A DNA stretch of 64,000 bases from Paenirhodobacter populi (GTDB taxonomy: Bacteria; Pseudomonadota; Alphaproteobacteria; Rhodobacterales; Rhodobacteraceae): NCBI RefSeq assembly GCF_004022215.1, contig NZ_SAUZ01000009.1:62001-126000 (forward strand), read 5' to 3'. The translations under genes were made by a program, and so were the position numbers. The notes under the pieces are model-generated. The model was not told the DNA's origin and ran no database searches. It saw only the letters and a program-made list of their open reading frames with translations. Below are positions 54,559-62,680 of this stretch, in pieces (position 1 is the stretch's first letter; every line of letters starts with the position of its first letter).

Positions 54559-54732
54559 GAATATCCCCGGCCCTATGTTGCGGAGGCCGTCCGCGATGCT
54601 CCCGTCGCTGTCGTGGATCAGGACGGCTCATCGGCCAGCCGGGACCTGATCCGTCGCATCGATGCGACGGACAGCGCGGCCGTCGTTGCAGCGCTTCTGA
54701 CGCTACCCGATGCACAGGCCCTCTTTTCGCGC
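54559..54732 (+). pseudogene. ABC-2 type permease fragment, cut by an IS21-like insertion
   Basis: A frame with no start encodes YPRPYVAEAVRDAPVAVVDQDGS... and RDLIRRIDATDSAAVVAALL, matching the first periplasmic segment of ABC-2 exporter permeases (YPQPY, PVAVVDQD, SR-L-R-IDA). It ends exactly where the IS21-like left end begins (54733). The rest of the permease is absent, so this is a relic of an export system. Confidence 0.6.
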
Positions 54733-54867
54733 TGTTGACCGGCGTGGAATAATGACCCCGCTTCTGGAGTGATCGGCGTCCCAAAGGGACGCGACCGACC
54801 GGGGGTTGGGTCCATTGTGCTTCCGATGCTTATCGGAGGCCAGGCACAGGATGCTGATCGTGGAGAG

Positions 54868-54908
54868 TGAGCCAGTGAGGCGCCACTGGTTCGAGCCCAC
54901 TGGCGAAC
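54868..54908 (+). repeat. Variable-stem hairpin element, copy A (in IS21 istA relic)
   Basis: Core GCGCCACTGGTTCGAG at 54880-54895, enclosed by arms CCAGTG (54872-54877) and CACTGG (54898-54903), preceded by GTGAG and followed by CGAA. It interrupts the istA-like start in frame, between MLIVE and KVRQLHF. Confidence 0.55.
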
Positions 54909-54983
54909 GCAAAGTCAGACAGCTGCATTTTACCGATGGCAGGGGGATCAAGACGATCTGCCGTGACCTGATGCTGCCCAAGA

Positions 54984-55015
54984 GTGAGGCGTGCGCCGCC
55001 AAGGCCACGCCGAAC
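54984..55015 (+). repeat. Variable-stem hairpin element, copy F (in IS21 istA relic)
   Basis: Arms GGCGTG (54988-54993) and CACGCC (55006-55011), preceded by GTGAG and followed by GAAC, as in copy A. The core (CGCCGCCAAGG) is diverged and shortened. It separates the istA segments ICRDL and VRKVIRTG. Confidence 0.4.
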
Positions 55016-55383
55016 CGTGCGCAAGGTGATCCGCACCGGGATGACGGAGTTCACCTACAGCCGCGCCCGAGGCTGGGTGCGTGACTGGGAGACCTCCCCC
55101 GGCTGCTTGAGGTCAACGCCGCGCGGGCCAGCCGGGAACGGCAGTCCCCCAACCATTGCGACATCGTCGAAACCGGCAACGACAGCTGGCGCATCAAAAC
55201 CCGCGCCTGAACGCGATCCGAAACGCAGGCCCGCGCCGGCTGCGCCAGCTGGAAAGCTACGCCGCCACGGGCCTGCTCACCCTATCGCCAGAGGGTTCAC
55301 TTTTGGACACCGATCGACAGTTTGTCGGTTGCGCGCTCTGAGCTTCCAGCATCCCGTGAAAACCGCCGCTTGAATGCCCCCGG

Positions 55384-56826
55384 CTAGAAGCTCCCCACCA
55401 GCACTCCGAGCGCAATCACCACCACGAGGGCCAGCAGCGCCCCCACGATCGCCACCATCACGATGTCGAGGTAACTCTGTCGCGCCGATACGCCGCAAAC
55501 CGACAGCAGCGTCACCACCGCGCCGCTGTGGGGCAGGCTGTCCAGCGTGCCCGCGCTCATCACCGCGACGCGATGCAGCAGTTGCGGGTCAATTCCCACC
55601 TCGGTCGCGCGCTGAAGATAGGTCGCGCCAAGCGCATCGAGCGCGATGGTCAGCCCGCCGGAGGCCGAGCCGGTCAGCGCCGCGAGAATGTTGGTTGCGA
55701 CCGCCAGGGAAACCAGCGGCCCGCCTCCGATCGAAAGCACCCAGTCCCGCACGACTGCGAACGCAGGCAGGGCCGCGACCACAGCGCCGAAGCCCACAAG
55801 GCTGGCGACGGCAAAGATCGGCAGGACCGAGGCATTGGCCCCTGCATCCAGCGTTTCGCGCAACCGCGGCAGGCGCGAACGGTTCAGCACCACGGCCGTC
55901 ACGATGGCCGCGGTCAGCGCCACGGCGACAGACCAGACCCCGCTGACCGAGCCGATGCCCGCCACGCCCCAGCGGGGTTCGGCCAGCCATGCGAAATCCA
56001 GCCGCGGCAGGATCACCAGCGACATCGCCAGATTGACCGCGATCACCACGAACAGCGGCAACGCCGCAATCGCCAGCGGCGGCAGTTCCGCGCTCTGGTG
56101 CCCGTGGGCCGTCTCGGCCGGATCGAATTCCCGCGCCGTCACCGCACGTTCGCGCAGGATCGTGTCGTCGACGCCCTGTATGCGGTCGTCCGAGAACCTC
56201 TCGTTCCGCGCGCGGGCGATCCGGCTCGCGCGGCCCAGCCACCACAGGCCGAAGCCCAGCATGATGACCGAGGCGATGATCCCCAGACCCGGCGCGGCAA
56301 AAGGCGTGGTGCCGAAGAAGGGCATCGGGATCGCGTTCTGGATTGCCGGGGTGCCGGGCAGCGCCATCATGGTGAAGGTGAAGGTGCCAAGCGCGATGGC
56401 GGGCGGCATCAGGCGGCGCGGAATGTCAGCGCGCTGAAACAGCGCCTCGGCCATCGGGGCCAGCACGAAAAGCGCGACGAACAGGCTCACCCCGCCATAG
56501 GTCAGCGCCGCTCCCGCAAGGACCACGGCCAGTATCGCATGTCCGGCTCCCAGCCGCCGGGTCAGCCATTCGGCAATGGCGCGGACGGATCCGCTGTCCT
56601 CCATCACCTTGCCGAAAACCGCGCCAAGCAGAAACAGCGGGAAGAACTGACCGATGAAATCCGCCCCGGCCCCCATGAACGTTTGCGTCCAATGGGCCAG
56701 CAGCGGCTCGCCCGAGATCAGCGCGGCGAGCAAGGCGGCGACGGGCGCCAGCAGCAGGACACTCCAGCCGCGATAAGCCAGCCAGATCAGGAACGCCAGC
56801 GCCAGAAGAATGCCGAGCAGCCCCAT
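55384..56826 (-). CDS. GntP-family permease
   Basis: A 480-residue transporter with about twelve membrane spans. It opens MGLLGILLALAFLIWLAYRG. GntP/CitMHS-like segments are GADFIGQFFPLFLLGAVFGKV, MMALPGTPAIQNAIPMPFFGT, LAALTGSASGGLTIALDALG and MSAGTLDSLPHSGAVVTLLSV. Members import gluconate, hydroxybutyrate or other organic acids by proton symport. Its start is 1 nt after the stop of the upstream patatin gene, so the two form an operon. This favours a hydroxy or fatty acid as substrate. Confidence 0.92.
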   Translation of the reverse strand: MGLLGILLALAFLIWLAYRGWSVLLLAPVAALLAALISGEPLLAHWTQTFMGAGADFIGQFFPLFLLGAVFGKVMEDSGSVRAIAEWLTRRLGAGHAILAVVLAGAALTYGGVSLFVALFVLAPMAEALFQRADIPRRLMPPAIALGTFTFTMMALPGTPAIQNAIPMPFFGTTPFAAPGLGIIASVIMLGFGLWWLGRASRIARARNERFSDDRIQGVDDTILRERAVTAREFDPAETAHGHQSAELPPLAIAALPLFVVIAVNLAMSLVILPRLDFAWLAEPRWGVAGIGSVSGVWSVAVALTAAIVTAVVLNRSRLPRLRETLDAGANASVLPIFAVASLVGFGAVVAALPAFAVVRDWVLSIGGGPLVSLAVATNILAALTGSASGGLTIALDALGATYLQRATEVGIDPQLLHRVAVMSAGTLDSLPHSGAVVTLLSVCGVSARQSYLDIVMVAIVGALLALVVVIALGVLVGSF

Positions 56827-56827
56827 T

Positions 56828-57871
56828 TCAGACCCCGTCAAGCAATGTGTCGATGTCCACCGAGGACCGGTGGCCGATGTTTCCCCCGTTGTCGCGCAGG
56901 AAGCTCTCGGCGGCGCGGCGGCCTTCGTCGCGCAGCCAGTGCAGGAAAGTCCGGTCCGCATTCATCTTGGACGAATGGTCGAGCCCGGTCATGACGCCGT
57001 TGCCCACCATATGCACCCGCATCCGGGCCCATCGCGCCCCCTCGCCATTGCCGGGGTCGGCGACCTGTCTGAGCAGCGCCATCATCCGCAGCTCCTTCAG
57101 CGTGGCCGCATTGAAGGAGACTTCATTCAACCGGTTCAGGATCGCTGCGGCCGTCCGCGGCACGCCGGGGCGTTCGATCGGGTTGATCGGGATCAGGATG
57201 GTGTCGTCGCTGTCCACCTCGCGCACGAGGGGCGTGAGCGTCGGGTTTCCGGTATAGCCGCCGTCCCAATAGCTCTCGCCGTCGATCTCGACCGCCTGGA
57301 AAAGCGTCGGCAGGCAGGCCGAGGCCAGCAGCACCTCGGGCGAAATCTCGGCATTGCGAAATACCCGGCCGCGGCCGGTGCGGACGTTGGTCGCGGTGAT
57401 GAACAGCTTGATCGGTGCGGCGCGCAGCCGGTCGAAGTCGATCACCTGATCCAGCACACGGGTCAGCGGATTGAGCCCTGTCGGGTTCAGCACATAGGGC
57501 GAGGTCAGCCGTGACAGCATGTCCATGGCAACGAAGGCCGGGGAATGGGCCAACGACCAGTTCCCCAGAGCCATATCGACGGGGCTGGGCTGGAACGGGC
57601 TGAAGCGGGCGGCATCGGCGACAAAGTCCCAGAAGGCGGTCAGCGCCTTGCGCGCGCCCTCGGCCCCGCCTGCCGCAAAGCCATCGACCAGAACGGCGGC
57701 GTTCATGGCCCCCGCCGAGGTTCCCGAAACCCCGACGATCCTGAGCCGGTCTTCCTCCAGCAGGCGATCCAGAACGCCCCAGGTGAAGGCGCCATGCGAA
57801 CCTCCGCCCTGCAAGGCCAGATCGATCGGCACCTGCGCGGGTCCGCCGCGACTGGAAGAGGATTCTGCCAT
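56828..57871 (-). CDS. Patatin-like phospholipase/hydrolase
   Basis: A 347-residue patatin-fold hydrolase. It has the oxyanion loop GGGSHG (residues 22-27), the nucleophile motif GTSAG (Ser52) and the catalytic aspartate in YWDGGYTGNP. ATG 57871 (MAESSSSRGG) is preferred over an upstream TTG. Members release fatty acids from phospholipids, or act on polyhydroxyalkanoate-type esters. The adjacent GntP-type permease suggests that the acid product may be transported. Confidence 0.92.
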   Translation of the reverse strand: MAESSSSRGGPAQVPIDLALQGGGSHGAFTWGVLDRLLEEDRLRIVGVSGTSAGAMNAAVLVDGFAAGGAEGARKALTAFWDFVADAARFSPFQPSPVDMALGNWSLAHSPAFVAMDMLSRLTSPYVLNPTGLNPLTRVLDQVIDFDRLRAAPIKLFITATNVRTGRGRVFRNAEISPEVLLASACLPTLFQAVEIDGESYWDGGYTGNPTLTPLVREVDSDDTILIPINPIERPGVPRTAAAILNRLNEVSFNAATLKELRMMALLRQVADPGNGEGARWARMRVHMVGNGVMTGLDHSSKMNADRTFLHWLRDEGRRAAESFLRDNGGNIGHRSSVDIDTLLDGV

Positions 57872-58462
57872 GGTCCACCGACTTCCTGTTTCGGAGGATG
57901 CTAGCACGGGGTGGACGGTTCTCAATCACCTGTTATGGCGCAACCGGTTCCCGCCTTTATCGGTCCCCTTCAGGCCCGCGGAAACCAACCGCAAGGCCAG
58001 CTTCCGCCTCGTCGGCGCACTGCTTCCGGCACGGAACGACGAATAAGCCGTCCAGCGCGCTCGTTACATGACACCGGAAACCATCGCACCGGTGGGCGAA
58101 GATGCCGTTGTCAGCCTTCCCGCCGTGGCATCCTGATCACGCAGGCCCGCGCATCACGGTGGAGATCAGCGCCAGCTATACCACTCCACGGGACAGCATC
58201 CCGCCCCATGCGGCTTCTTTCCATTCTATCGAAAGGATCACACCATCAAACCGGGGATCAAACACCTTATGTGTCTCAGCCCCGTTATAGATACCCCGCC
58301 ACCGATCCCGGCCAGGACCGACGACGGGGTGGGATACAGCGCTGAACAGCTTGTGGCCTGACCACGATCGCCCGCAGGCTGATCCCGCCTCTCTTCACCG
58401 TCTCGAACAGTTGACGGCGGCCCGTTTTGCGGAACCGCGCAACATAAGGAAGAGAGGGTGAT
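57872..58462. other. Intergenic stretch of 591 bp before the IS relics
   Basis: No convincing gene. It holds the promoter region of the patatin/GntP operon on the minus strand and, beyond about 58240, sequence likely to belong to the left flank of the IS110-like element. No terminal repeat was identified. Confidence 0.4.
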
Positions 58463-59040
58463 ATGAGACCAGCGACCACCGTGATCGGTATGGATGTTTC
58501 CCGTGATTGGCTCGACGGTTTTGTGCGTCGAGCGGTCGGCATTTCCGCCTGCCCAACACCGCTGCAGGCGATGCCCAACTTCTCGCGCAGATCCGGAATT
58601 TGCCGGGGCCGGTGCGGATCGGGTTCGAGGCGACAGGTGGCCAGCAATGGGGGCGGCCAGGAATGGGTGCTCTGGGCCACGCTCGTCACGGCAGAGATTG
58701 AGGCCGTGCAACTGCCCCCGGCACAGATCAAACCCTTTGCCCTTTCCCGGGGCACGCGGGCAAAGACAGACTAGATCGATGCCGGGCGCATCGCCCGGTT
58801 CATGCTGTTCACGCCAGAGGCCGGACGGAGGTTGCGGAGCGAGAGCCCGCGTATTCTCAGAACTTTGACAACACGGAGGGCCCAGATCGCCGACATGCGC
58901 AAACGGCTTTTGGCGCGAAGCGCACACGCAGGAAGCAAGACGTCCCCGCCGGGATCGAGGGCATGGATGATGATCCGAAGGCCATGCTGGACACCCAGGT
59001 CGGTGACGTCGAACGACGGGTCAAAAACGTCATCGCACAG
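58463..59040 (+). mobile_element. IS110-family transposase relic (5' part)
   Basis: The start MRPATTVIGMDVSRDWLDGF is the IS110 RuvC-like DEDD domain opening. Further parts, in shifted frames, are LLAQIRNLPGPVRIGFEATGG, VQLPPAQIKPFALSRGTRAKTD, ARFMLFTPEAGRRL and LRTLTTRRAQIADMRKRLLA. There is a 16-bp imperfect tandem duplication near 58640-58670, several frameshifts and an in-frame stop. The gene is cut at 59040 by the left end of an IS3-like element. Confidence 0.75.
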
Positions 59041-59779
59041 TGAACTTGCCCCCGTTTCGAGCGGACACTTGGGCATAACGATGGAGGCTCAGGCATATGC
59101 CTGAGCATGTGCTTATGTCCGAGATAGAGATCATCACCGATGGTGGGCTTCGCCGCCGTTGGACCGCTGCCAAGAAGCTGCGGATCGTAGAGGAGGCGCT
59201 GGACGACCGCGCCAGCATCTCGGTCGTTGCGCGCCGGAATGGTGTCGCGCCGAACCTGTTGTATCGTTGGCGACGGCTCATGCGCGAGGGGGGAGTGTCG
59301 CCGTGTCCGAGGATGATGACGTCACCAGCAACAAGGTCGTCCCGCAGGTGAAGGATCGCACCCGCGAACTCGGACGCAAGACGCTGGAATGAGCATGGCT
59401 GCGCCATGGGTTCGAGCGGCCAAGCGAATGAGATCCTGCGCGAGGCGCTGGACAAGTCACGGTCAAAAAAACCGACCTTGCTCGCGCGCTCGCCGTTGAA
59501 GGACGATTTCCGGTGCAGGCCGTGGCGGAAACCCTGTGCGTGGCCCGCTCCAACCTGATCGACCGGCGGGACGGCAGGACGGCAGGACGGCAGGACGAAG
59601 CTGCGGCGACGCTATCATAAAGCGCAAGACGCGGCGGTGATGCCGTTGATCACGACGCGCTGGCGGCGACGCGCCCGACCTATGGCTACCGACGGATCAC
59701 GACGATCCTGAACCGCCAATTGCGCTCTGAAGGCCTGGCGCCGGTCAATCACAAGCGGGTTTAACGGATCATGCAGACC
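59041..59779 (+). mobile_element. IS3-family element relic (orfA and start of orfB), inserted in the IS110 relic
   Basis: It begins TGAACTTGCCCCC, an IS3-type end. orfA starts at ATG 59115 with LRRRWTAAKKLRIVEEAL and SVVARRNGVAPNLLYRWRRLM, then shifts frame near 59290 at a run of G. After a hairpin insertion (copy E) the coiled-coil part continues as EILREALDKS. orfB is visible as RPTYGYRRITTILNRQLRSEG and APVNHKRV, followed by an in-frame TAA and RIMQT. The GGCAGGAC unit is repeated about three times at 59568-59596. The element is interrupted at 59780 by an IS5-like element; its remainder is missing. Confidence 0.75.
59390..59428 (+). repeat. Variable-stem hairpin element, copy E (in IS3 orfA relic)
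   Basis: Core GCGCCATGGGTTCGAG at 59401-59416, arms TGGC (59396-59399) and GCCA (59419-59422), preceded by TGAGC and followed by CGAA. It interrupts orfA between GRKTLE and EILREALDKS and introduces a stop codon. Confidence 0.55.
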
Positions 59780-59889
59780 GGCTTTGTTGCGCTATTCTGG
59801 TTGAGGCCGCACGTCTCCCTTTCCCAGATATCTTCAGCGCATGCGAACGGTCTCGGGCGTGCCGAGTGATGTGAAGCGGTTCATGACTG

Positions 59890-59963
59890 AGCAGGTGAAC
59901 GGTTGCCCATCGAGGCGCCATCGGTTCAAGCCCGATGGGCGACGGTTCGAGAGAACCTGCGAA
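59890..59963 (+). repeat. Variable-stem hairpin elements, nested copies B (outer and inner), in IS5 transposase
   Basis: Inner copy: core GCGCCATCGGTTCAAG at 59915-59930 with 8-bp arms at 59905-59912 and 59933-59940. Outer copy: arms GCAGGT (59891-59896) and ACCTGC (59955-59960), with core remnant GGTTCGAG at 59944-59951. The inner copy splits the outer one. Together they separate the transposase segments AEVQIR and VMNRFTSLGTPETVRMR. Confidence 0.5.
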
Positions 59964-60410
59964 GGATGCGGATCTGGACCTCTGCATCCTGCCTGTCGAA
60001 GTCTCTGGCCACGATGGGTTCGCCCAGGAGCTTGAGGCGTCTCATCTTGGCTTCCACACGACTTCGTCGGTGATATCCAGACCATTTCTTCCATTTGACC
60101 CGGCCAAAGCGTTTGCAGGCGCGCAGCGCCTCGTCTCGCGCCTGCAGACCAGGATCGTGCCCCTTCCAGTCCGGGCATTCCGGCGGGGTGGGATGATCGC
60201 ATCGGCGCCTCGGGCCGCGATGGCGGCATGGCAGCCCTTGGTGTCGTAGAACCCATCGGCGGTGACACTGCCGATGGGTTCTTCAGCAGGGATCTGGGCC
60301 AACAGATCGGGCAATACCGGCGCATCGCCGATGCGGTTGCTGGTCATCTCTACAGCCCGCACCTCCAGCGTTTCAGCATCGATACCGATATGGATCTTGC
60401 GTCGCACGCT

Positions 60411-60446
60411 ATGGTTGCTCGAACCAGTGGCGCAACCTGGCGCGCC
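60411..60446 (-). repeat. Variable-stem hairpin element, copy C (in IS5 transposase)
   Basis: On the minus strand the core GCGCCACTGGTTCGAG spans 60433-60418, with arms GGTTG (plus-strand 60413-60417) and CAACC (60433-60437). It lies just upstream (in the transposase sense) of RKIHIGIDAETL and disrupts the frame. Confidence 0.5.
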
Positions 60447-60507
60447 CTGCGGCGGCTGGCCCCATGCTTACGAACTTGCCACTCGCCTTCGCCCGAGAAC
60501 TTGATGC

Positions 60508-60550
60508 CCCCTCGCCGGTTCTCTCGAACCGGTGGCGTTCACCGGCTCGA
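60508..60550 (-). repeat. Variable-stem hairpin element, copy D (in IS5 transposase)
   Basis: The core, plus-strand CTCGAACCGGTGGCG at 60523-60537, is flanked by arms GCCGGT (60514-60519) and ACCGGC (60541-60546). It interrupts the transposase after HLLVD. It shares CGAACCGGTGGCGTTCACC-like sequence with outer copy B. Confidence 0.5.
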
Positions 60551-60997
60551 TGTCCACCAACAGATGCAGCGGGCCGGACACCGCACGATACGCGATCTGA
60601 ACCTTCAGGTTCTGCTGCCTGCGGCAGAGCGTTGTGTACTGAGAAGGATCGCCCGACGAAGGGCACCGGCCAGCCGAGCCCGGACAGGGCCAGAAGGCTC
60701 TCCACAAACCCCGTCGTTTGACGGAGCGGCAGCCCGAACAGCACCTTGATTGAGAGGCAGAATTGGATGGCCGCTGCCGAAAACCTCTCGGAATGACCCA
60801 CCTTGCCGCTTGGGGCTACGAACCACGACATCTGCGGGTCAAACCACACCATCAAAGAACCACGGCGCTTCAGGGCCTGATTGTAGCTGGACCAGTTCGT
60901 CGTTCGGAAAACCGGGACAGGCTTGCTCATGGGGATAACCTAACCCGCTGACTCAAAAACATGAATCCGTGAACCGACGGGGTAGTGCAACAAAACC

Positions 60998-61366
60998 TTA
61001 CAGATGTGTCGTGTGCCTGCATCGGGCAATGACTTCATGCAATATCCGCTCGGTTCCCGTCATCGCGGATATGCCGGTCATGACCAATCTCGTTGACGAA
61101 TGACTGACGGTTGACAGATCATTTCGGACCTTTGTTCGGCCGCCATTGTGAGTGCCTGCCCCCGTTGCGCCATGCTTCCGAATGCCGGAACGCCCCCTTT
61201 TCCACTGGCGCGATGGTAACCGGTCAAAGCCTGCCATGATCCATTGATGCCGCACCCGGTTTCGGGCTAGAAAACACCTGACGCAGTACAGATGCCAAGC
61301 TTTCGTGTCTGCGGCGGTGGCCGCTTCGTTCGCCAGGTCAGGAGATCCCCGAAACCGGAGCCAACC
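60998..61366. other. Stretch of 369 bp right of the IS graveyard
   Basis: No gene recognised. The missing halves of the IS3 and IS110 relics are not found here. The last part must hold the promoter of the 171-residue gene and the MetNIQ-type genes; no clear -35/-10 pair was seen. Confidence 0.45.
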
Positions 61367-61912: not shown

Positions 61913-62680
61913 ATGTCGAAAGAATACCCGGTGATCGAAGTCGAAAACATCAGCAAGACATTCCGCGCCCCCGACGGGGGCGGCCGGATCGCCGCGCTCA
62001 GGGACATCAGTTTCAAGGTTGCCCCGCGTGAAGTTCTGGGTGTCGTCGGCAAAAGCGGCGCGGGGAAAACGACGCTCCTGCGCGTGCTCAGCCTGCAGAT
62101 GCCGCCGGACAGCGGCAGGCTGAATTTCGGCACGACCCGGATCGATGAAGGCACACCCGGCTCCGTCGTGCGTGACGTGATGCGCCGGACCTCGACCGTC
62201 TTTCAGGGGTTCAGCCTGCTCTACAACCGCTCCGTTCTTGAAAACGTCGCCCTGCCGCTGAAACTGCGCAATGTGGCGCGGGCGGAACGCACAGGCAGGG
62301 CACGCGAGATGCTGGATTTCGTCGGTCTCGGGACCCATGCGGATGTCTACCCCATCACCCTGTCCGGGGGCGAGGCGCAGCGTGTCGCCATTGCCCGCGC
62401 CCTCGTCACCGACCCGGAGGTGCTGTTTCTGGATGAGCCGACCTCGGCCCTCGATGCCCGGACCAGCGGGGAGATTCTGGATCTCCTGAAGAAGGTGCAG
62501 GGCCGCTATCCCATGGCGATGATCCTTGTGGCCCATCACATGGACGTCGTGCGCTACATGTGCGACCGGGTGTTGCACCTCGACGGCGGCACGGTCCGGC
62601 GGCTGGGGCCGATCAGGAATACCGCGCAGTTCCGCGTGGATCCGATAGAGGCGCTCTGGGACGCACCGCAAGATGTTTGA
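61913..62680 (+). CDS. Methionine-type ABC importer ATPase, MetN-like (short form)
   Basis: A 255-residue ATPase. Walker A is GKSGAGKTT, the signature LSGGEAQRVAIARAL, Walker B VLFLDEPTSALD and the switch histidine is in ILVAHHMDVV. It lacks the C-terminal ACT-like ligand-sensing domain of full-length MetN (about 340 residues), so it may not be inhibited by intracellular substrate. ATG 61913 is chosen (AGG upstream); a GTG at 61895 is the alternative. The end overlaps the permease start by 8 bp. Confidence 0.9.
   Translation: MSKEYPVIEVENISKTFRAPDGGGRIAALRDISFKVAPREVLGVVGKSGAGKTTLLRVLSLQMPPDSGRLNFGTTRIDEGTPGSVVRDVMRRTSTVFQGFSLLYNRSVLENVALPLKLRNVARAERTGRAREMLDFVGLGTHADVYPITLSGGEAQRVAIARALVTDPEVLFLDEPTSALDARTSGEILDLLKKVQGRYPMAMILVAHHMDVVRYMCDRVLHLDGGTVRRLGPIRNTAQFRVDPIEALWDAPQDV

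Follow-up and report, generated by a model that had tools for sequence, protein, structure and literature searches.

We examined a 64,000-nt stretch of the genome of Paenirhodobacter populi (hereafter the window; positions 62,001 to 126,000 of contig NZ_SAUZ01000009.1, part of contig C79 in our numbering of the genome, G000, which comprises 4.78 Mb in 91 contigs). A reading of the letters alone had picked out at least seven short hairpins with a constant core and variable, self-pairing arms inside decayed transposase genes of the window. We found that such a hairpin can enter a target in both orientations, in most cases takes the place of 4-5 bp there without any duplication, and can also land within another copy of itself; most copies are in or close to genes of other mobile elements. 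That the units are mobile hairpins replacing a few target bases is, in our judgement, very likely. On balance, we also favor the reading that they form a non-autonomous element of ~42 nt, probably folding as RNA, that is moved in trans.

A covariance model built from 27 aligned units, with window units among the seeds, gave 132 matches in the fetched loci. The 28 class-2 matches have a full outer helix, which is missing from the 104 class-1 matches. With lengths as set by the model, most class-1 units are 42 nt (51 units) or 41 nt (32) long, and the others are 43 (8), 40 (7), 39 (4), or 44 nt (2). At its outer end a unit has two covarying base pairs, followed inward by a GA/GA mismatch (87 of the 104 class-1 units), a variable stem that also covaries, and the constant tip CGCCANNGGTTCRAG. 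Inside the mismatch, the variable stem has 7 bp and leads over a bulged base and a further 3 bp to GCC-AYY-GGU, with UCRA as a 4-nt bulge on the 3' side. Pairing between the two bases at the 5' end and the two at the 3' end holds in 97/104 and 97/104 class-1 units, with five main combinations (GT..AC 36, TC..GG 16, AT..AT 15, GC..GC 11, and CT..AG 9). The 5' tag is mostly N1N2GAG, in which N1N2 is not fixed but varies by pairing with the 3' end. One exact consensus pattern retrieved 41 stretches from a one-genome-per-species collection (the named set), and these pattern-defined units were added in a wider count. Their 41 lengths are 42 by construction, two of the stretches duplicate loci already counted, and a third, L212, shares its contig with L102.

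The matched arm changes had been taken as a sign of selection on structure, and the covariation test agrees with this. In 48 distinct 43-nt class-1 matches (the G after the unit included and other lengths left out), 92.2% of the cells were paired, and 101 cells carried double changes compared with a shuffled mean of 27.8. The covariation score was 0.395, against 0.128 for shuffled sets and 0.037-0.086 for slid structures. A tRNA T-arm-like fold, in which the core pairs with the 3' arm, was also tried and rejected since it had no covariation support (71.4% paired vs 70.4% shuffled). Predicted folds with at least 12 of the 15 consensus pairs were obtained for 27 of the 48 units as sense RNA, compared with 0 as antisense RNA, 1 as sense DNA, and 0 as antisense DNA, a comparison that leans toward RNA, as the structure itself came from folding sense-strand RNA. 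We put forward RNA as the moving form only tentatively.

Empty relatives were found for 71 of the 132 units, corresponding to 43 sites (all fetched loci, class-2 units included), and the units are thus insertions, as the sequence-only reading had proposed. The net gain was 37 bp at 16 sites, 38 bp at 14, and 36 bp at 5, so that 35/43 sites lie within 36-38 bp. At the position of the unit and its following base, the empty relative has five letters at 23 sites and six at 14, and the remaining six sites differ. This means that 4-5 bp of target are replaced at 37 of the 43 sites if the following base, usually G, belongs to the target. Over all 43 sites, 2-12 target bases are missing and none are duplicated. 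The base before a class-1 unit, as delimited by the model, is A in 76/104 and G in 22/104 cases, and the base after it is G in 92/104. These flanking bases could be microhomology used in replication template switching, in which the polymerase, at a short match, switches to a hairpin elsewhere and comes back ~5 bp downstream after copying it. Hairpins are prone to such events, and movement would then be a mutational by-product needing no dedicated enzyme. However, the target loss, which varies little at most sites, points to a recognized structure instead of a passive template, as do the GA/GA mismatch and the stem covariation, and we consider template switching unlikely.

Units differ even between nearly identical host copies. 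Two insertion sequence (IS) copies of the IS5 type, on contigs C21 and C40 of the P. populi genome, share 898 of 921 aligned bases (97.5% identity), and both have an open frame of 325 residues. C40 is filled where C21 is empty, and C21 holds a different unit, in the opposite orientation, where C40 is empty; each insertion adds 36 bp. The two open IS5 frames therefore carry units at different places, an outcome in favor of the sequence-only reading. The in-frame peptides of these transposases (L147 and L146/L156, on C40 and C21) are IEPVSATGSSEPAR and, in the other orientation, LDMVLGPVADNVS. Furthermore, in genome G015 a class II ribonucleotide reductase (PF02867; 1039 residues open in the fetched stretch) contains a 41-nt unit (L129:1948-1989) that adds 12 residues in frame. 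This unit is lacking in all five relatives in which the region was found, out of six other genomes searched; the P. populi genome was searched for the region and gave no match. The description of the hosts as decayed genes thus holds for the relics in the window but not in general, since these two IS5 frames and the ribonucleotide reductase frame are open with the unit in place.

Six unit sequences each occur at 2-3 sites with unrelated flanks, a set in which consensus-like units are over-represented because, for five of them, one or more of the copies came from the consensus pattern and has no counterpart in the model set. Conversely, one site can hold different units, and the 104 class-1 units fall in 71 site clusters. 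The arms are therefore a property of the unit, and the suggestion that they are copied from each target finds no support. It could be argued that the units have no present mobility, having arisen long ago in transposase genes and then passed from one IS copy to another through copying and gene conversion. Most hosts are indeed IS genes, many units lie in shared sites, and one window unit (inner B) is identical at six places of one genome. Yet this account is quite improbable given the identical units at unrelated sites, the reciprocal presence in the IS5 twins, and the insertion of a unit inside another unit; the ribonucleotide reductase insertion also largely contradicts it, barring a chance look-alike.

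The hosts were tallied with 17 transposase reference sequences, two of which have Pfam matches that are weak or of unknown function (L130 and L121); three annotated plasmid stretches added one further reference. Transposase coding DNA lay within 600 bp of 88 of the 104 class-1 units and of 0/90 random control points placed inside nine control stretches of relatives, although part of the 88 is self-match because 14 references come from the same loci. A transposase relative was found within the same distance of 23/41 named-set stretches and 6/28 class-2 units. Open reading frames (ORFs) near units were examined as well. They were picked by eye, since a frame choice based on third-codon-position GC content (GC3) had missed the transposase frame of L082, and the second to fourth sets covered part of the unplaced flanks. 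In the first set, 10/10 ORFs near units matched mobile-element families. The second set gave four of ten above the curated cut-off (L113, L126, L137, and L140), four below it (L112, L116, L130, and L131), one DUF1153, and one ribonucleotide reductase. In the third, seven of ten were above the cut-off, one was below it (L194, which better matched a sigma-factor domain), and two had no match. The fourth set, of nine proteins, included five mobile ones, one other (ATP-grasp, L131), and three without a match. A unit-like stretch was also seen in the Ruegeria pomeroyi DSS-3 plasmid NC_006569.1 (92014-92056) beneath an annotated DUF1153 protein, indicating that annotated proteins can contain unit peptides.

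The host families included rve (IS3-type), DDE of IS5, IS21, IS66, Mutator, IS91, serine recombinase, and tyrosine integrase. Together with the comparisons with ISPam1 and istA, the Pfam matches and the tally support the earlier view that the units sit in several IS families. Relative to their hosts, 50 class-1 units were sense and 38 antisense (88 placed), and the named set had 9 and 14 (n=23). No class-1 unit was shown in ordinary intergenic DNA, which would argue for targeting, but the flanks of 16/104 class-1 and 18/41 named units were unplaced. On the other hand, insertion near mobile genes may reflect tolerance, the single ordinary gene with a demonstrated insertion having received it in frame.

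The gains of 37 and 38 bp (30/43 sites) shift the reading frame, and each of the in-frame insertions seen, three in number, is a 41-nt unit that adds 36 bp. Such frameshifts, and the concentration near transposase and integrase genes, would be expected of a host defence that writes hairpins into mobile-element genes to silence them. The ribonucleotide reductase insertion, the in-frame units in open IS5 frames, and 20 intergenic members of the family speak against a defence, making it highly improbable. Codon-position bias persists in unit-bearing IS5 copies (31/15/94 for the window vs ISPam1; 28/16/89 for a unit-less copy of Paracoccus versutus), which raised the idea that frameshifted copies continue to be translated through bypass or splicing. 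We rejected it in favor of recent insertion, which is simpler because units B and D are identical in the window and contig C2 although the host genes differ at 149/929 compared sites.

Repetitive extragenic palindromic (REP) sequences, moved by REP-associated tyrosine transposases (RAYT, Y1), resemble the units as short hairpins with a short 5' tag, here mostly N-N-GAG. However, class-1 units are largely intragenic, and PF01797 (Y1/RAYT) was found in 0/18 genomes, i.e., the P. populi genome and 17 genomes of the same genus, of which six contain 8-25 units. In all, 9 of the 61 genomes searched have PF01797. A REP/RAYT origin is contradicted as tested and hardly credible.

In addition to the self-match in the host tally and the lean of the fold comparison, a number of observations weigh against a hairpin moved in trans. 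No moving enzyme was identified, the one searched for in P. populi and its 17 congeners being PF01797, but little follows from an enzyme being absent from one genome because the hosts are themselves mobile. The net gain is outside 36-38 bp at 8/43 sites (30, 32, 35 at two sites, 39 at two, 40, and 41), two rows among the matches listed have a gap of -1 and no target loss, and the best empty relatives are just 73-92% identical; some boundaries are uncertain for these reasons. The covariation all comes from the outer helix, with the inner 3 bp hardly varying and supported by their constancy only, two outer pairs are broken in 11-12 of the 48 units, and kinship of units alone can push covariation above that of shuffles. 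Flanks without a match in the host tally, counted above, have to be added, and part of the family (20 class-2 loci) is, as far as seen, intergenic and sits in a common hairpin motif.

These intergenic class-2 units have an 11-bp helix instead of the GA/GA step. By eye, 19/20 occupy one slot of a motif that is roughly AAATAYYCCGGGGG[unit]GGGCAGAGCCCC, several of them degenerate. An AATA/AAAT-like string is present on the left in 19/20, and GGG on the left and CCC on the right in 20/20. The slot motif, about AAATAYCCCGGGGGG-[variable hairpin]-GGGGCAGCGCCCC, was observed at L088-L101 and L118-L128, with class-2 units in some places and other hairpins elsewhere. It is also present without class-2 units in the control stretches L167, L170, and L175, where other hairpins fill the slot, and L091, the only stretch with the motif that was run against Rfam, gave no match. 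Of the eight remaining class-2 matches (28 in all), six are copies of inner B, and L013 and L009 hold one each.

The units in the window are listed in Table 1. Five of the seven hairpins noted earlier (A, E, inner B, C, and D) were matched by the covariance model and two (F and outer B) are shown to be insertions by copies without them, at coordinates that had been right within a few bases.

Table 1 Hairpin units and a probable remnant of a further hairpin in the window. Model-match ranges include the G after the unit.
Feature	Position	Strand	Setting	Evidence	Model match
Unit A, 42 nt	54867..54908	+	in IS21 istA relic	covariance-model match; empty/filled P. aminovorans comparison	54867-54909
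Unit F, short version, 32 nt, lacks part of core	54984..55015	+	istA relic of unit A	copy comparison; missed by model	
Unit E, 41 nt	59389..59429	+	transposase relic (IS3-type by eye)	covariance-model match; transposase relative within 600 bp	59389-59430
Outer unit B, interrupted by inner B	59887..59964 (about)	+	near 3' end of IS5 transposase relic, antisense to relic	copy comparison; missed by model	
Inner unit B, 42 nt	59902..59943	+	inside core of outer B	covariance-model match; comparison with uninterrupted outer units	59902-59944
Unit C, 42 nt	60404..60445	-	IS5 transposase relic	38 bp more than ISPam1; weak model match, E 0.0056	60403-60445
Unit D, 41 nt	60510..60550	-	IS5 transposase relic	37 bp more than ISPam1; model match	60509-60550
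Probable hairpin remnant, ends CTGAG..CGAAG	60639..60661	+	IS5 relic	extra sequence vs ISPam1	

Unit A is missing from the istA of plasmid IV of Paracoccus aminovorans, whereas plasmid II of the same species is filled with an identical unit. Unit F is present in the window and contig C39 but empty in both P. aminovorans istA copies, and no empty site was found for unit E. The IS5 relic was aligned to the annotated ISPam1 of P. aminophilus. The nested B pair adds 74 bp compared with ISPam1 and the P. versutus copy, and an uninterrupted outer-B-type unit is present in L104, L110, and L164. Inner B has replaced 5 bp of the outer-B core. The ACGGTT on both sides of inner B was considered as a target duplication and rejected, since the uninterrupted outer units show that unit ends beside target letters produce it.

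The sequence at 60639-60661 is probably the remnant of a further hairpin with unit-like ends, which would place it in the family. Its interior differs from that of the units; the hairpin is longer in C2 (L010) and C46 (L022) and has been shortened in the window between direct repeats AAGGATC. A distinct hairpin, GGGAAAACAGTCC..GGACTGTTTTCTG, was observed in L022 (C46) and L018 (C37) at about columns 547-591 of alignment A2. ISPam1, the window, and C2 all lack it, and it appears to represent a second family of mobile hairpins.

The sequence-only reading had also proposed a covariance-model search of this and related genomes, and many copies were found outside the relics, which again favors that reading. 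The core pattern GCGCCAYYGGTTCRAG (at most one mismatch) occurs 36 times in the P. populi genome, compared with three times for a reversed control pattern, and the model gave 49 matches there at E<=0.5. At E<=0.01, 24 of 61 genomes (P. populi and 60 relatives) were matched; of the 24 genomes from outside the family just one was, by two weak matches. With stricter filters, an order-wide sample had matches at E<=1e-4 in 111/292 genomes, covering 62/112 genera. The 41 pattern stretches came from Rhodobacteraceae-type bacteria (one Amaricoccus metagenome-assembled genome, MAG), Azospirillum (4), and one unplaced alphaproteobacterial MAG. Nine 10-kb control stretches of relatives, taken at round coordinates, had no match at E<=1, while two of three Paracoccus plasmid stretches run beside them had model matches. 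On P. aminophilus pAMI5, two strong unit matches were observed at L178:28173-28554, between flgI and glyA, where no genes are listed.

Rfam had 0 matches in the window, with only far-below-gathering-score matches in window 54700-61000 and L091 1800-2400. Phage records had no match to one unit, and IMG/VR had none to one exact pattern, absences that apply only to searches this sensitive. The open-licence literature (PMC) yielded no account of these units.

Several known elements share features with the units. Rickettsia palindromic elements (RPE) are palindromic sequences of about 100-150 bp in alphaproteobacteria that occur inside genes, sometimes in frame. The units are likewise palindromic, alphaproteobacterial, and inside genes, sometimes in frame, but by description they are set apart from RPE in being mostly 41-42 nt, in replacing a few bp of target, and in having hosts mostly near transposase genes. 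In-frame units are seen in the IS5 and ribonucleotide reductase cases, yet the majority of the insertions measured cause a frameshift. Double-hairpin elements of fungal mitochondria are also small, mobile, and subject to compensatory changes, but they have two hairpins and are organellar. Miniature inverted-repeat transposable elements are similarly small and non-autonomous with inverted ends, whereas the unit ends vary from copy to copy by covariation and no target duplication was found at the 43 sites. GC42 and other GC clusters of yeast mitochondria are 42-nt mobile hairpins with a constrained structure and merged copies, for which RNA-mediated movement has been considered (PMC4478555). For GC42, the part of that report used here describes short direct repeats, not target loss. 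Compared with GC42 as described in that part, the units are bacterial, lose target, and have a constant tip with a stem that varies by covariation. Together with RPE, GC42 hairpins appear to be the closest in behavior to the units.

How a hairpin moved in trans might integrate can be outlined. The sense strand would act, and be recognized, as a folded RNA, with its tandem GA, bulged base, AYY triloop, and UCRA bulge, or else as DNA of that strand. An enzyme supplied in trans might open the target with a ~5-nt stagger, the overhang would then be lost, and a DNA copy of the hairpin would be joined in. Clustering near transposase and integrase genes may result from tolerance and from spread with those elements, perhaps with true targeting in addition. 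As a more specific and speculative possibility, the units could be a bacterial retro-hairpin, i.e., a non-coding folded RNA of ~42 nt that is copied to DNA and pasted over ~5 bp by a trans-acting machine.

The units are a small mobile element apparently recognized by structure rather than sequence, and their integration signature, with a few bp replaced and no duplication, is unlike that of all elements compared here. They are widespread in the order and so recent that IS copies of one genome differ in them despite being almost identical, and they both add 12-residue peptides in frame and break transposase genes. The movement of protein-coding palindromes and mitochondrial hairpin elements thereby becomes testable in culturable bacteria. 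If they prove to be a retro-hairpin, the units would rank with the smallest RNA-mobile elements and provide bacteria with an equivalent of the mitochondrial hairpin elements.

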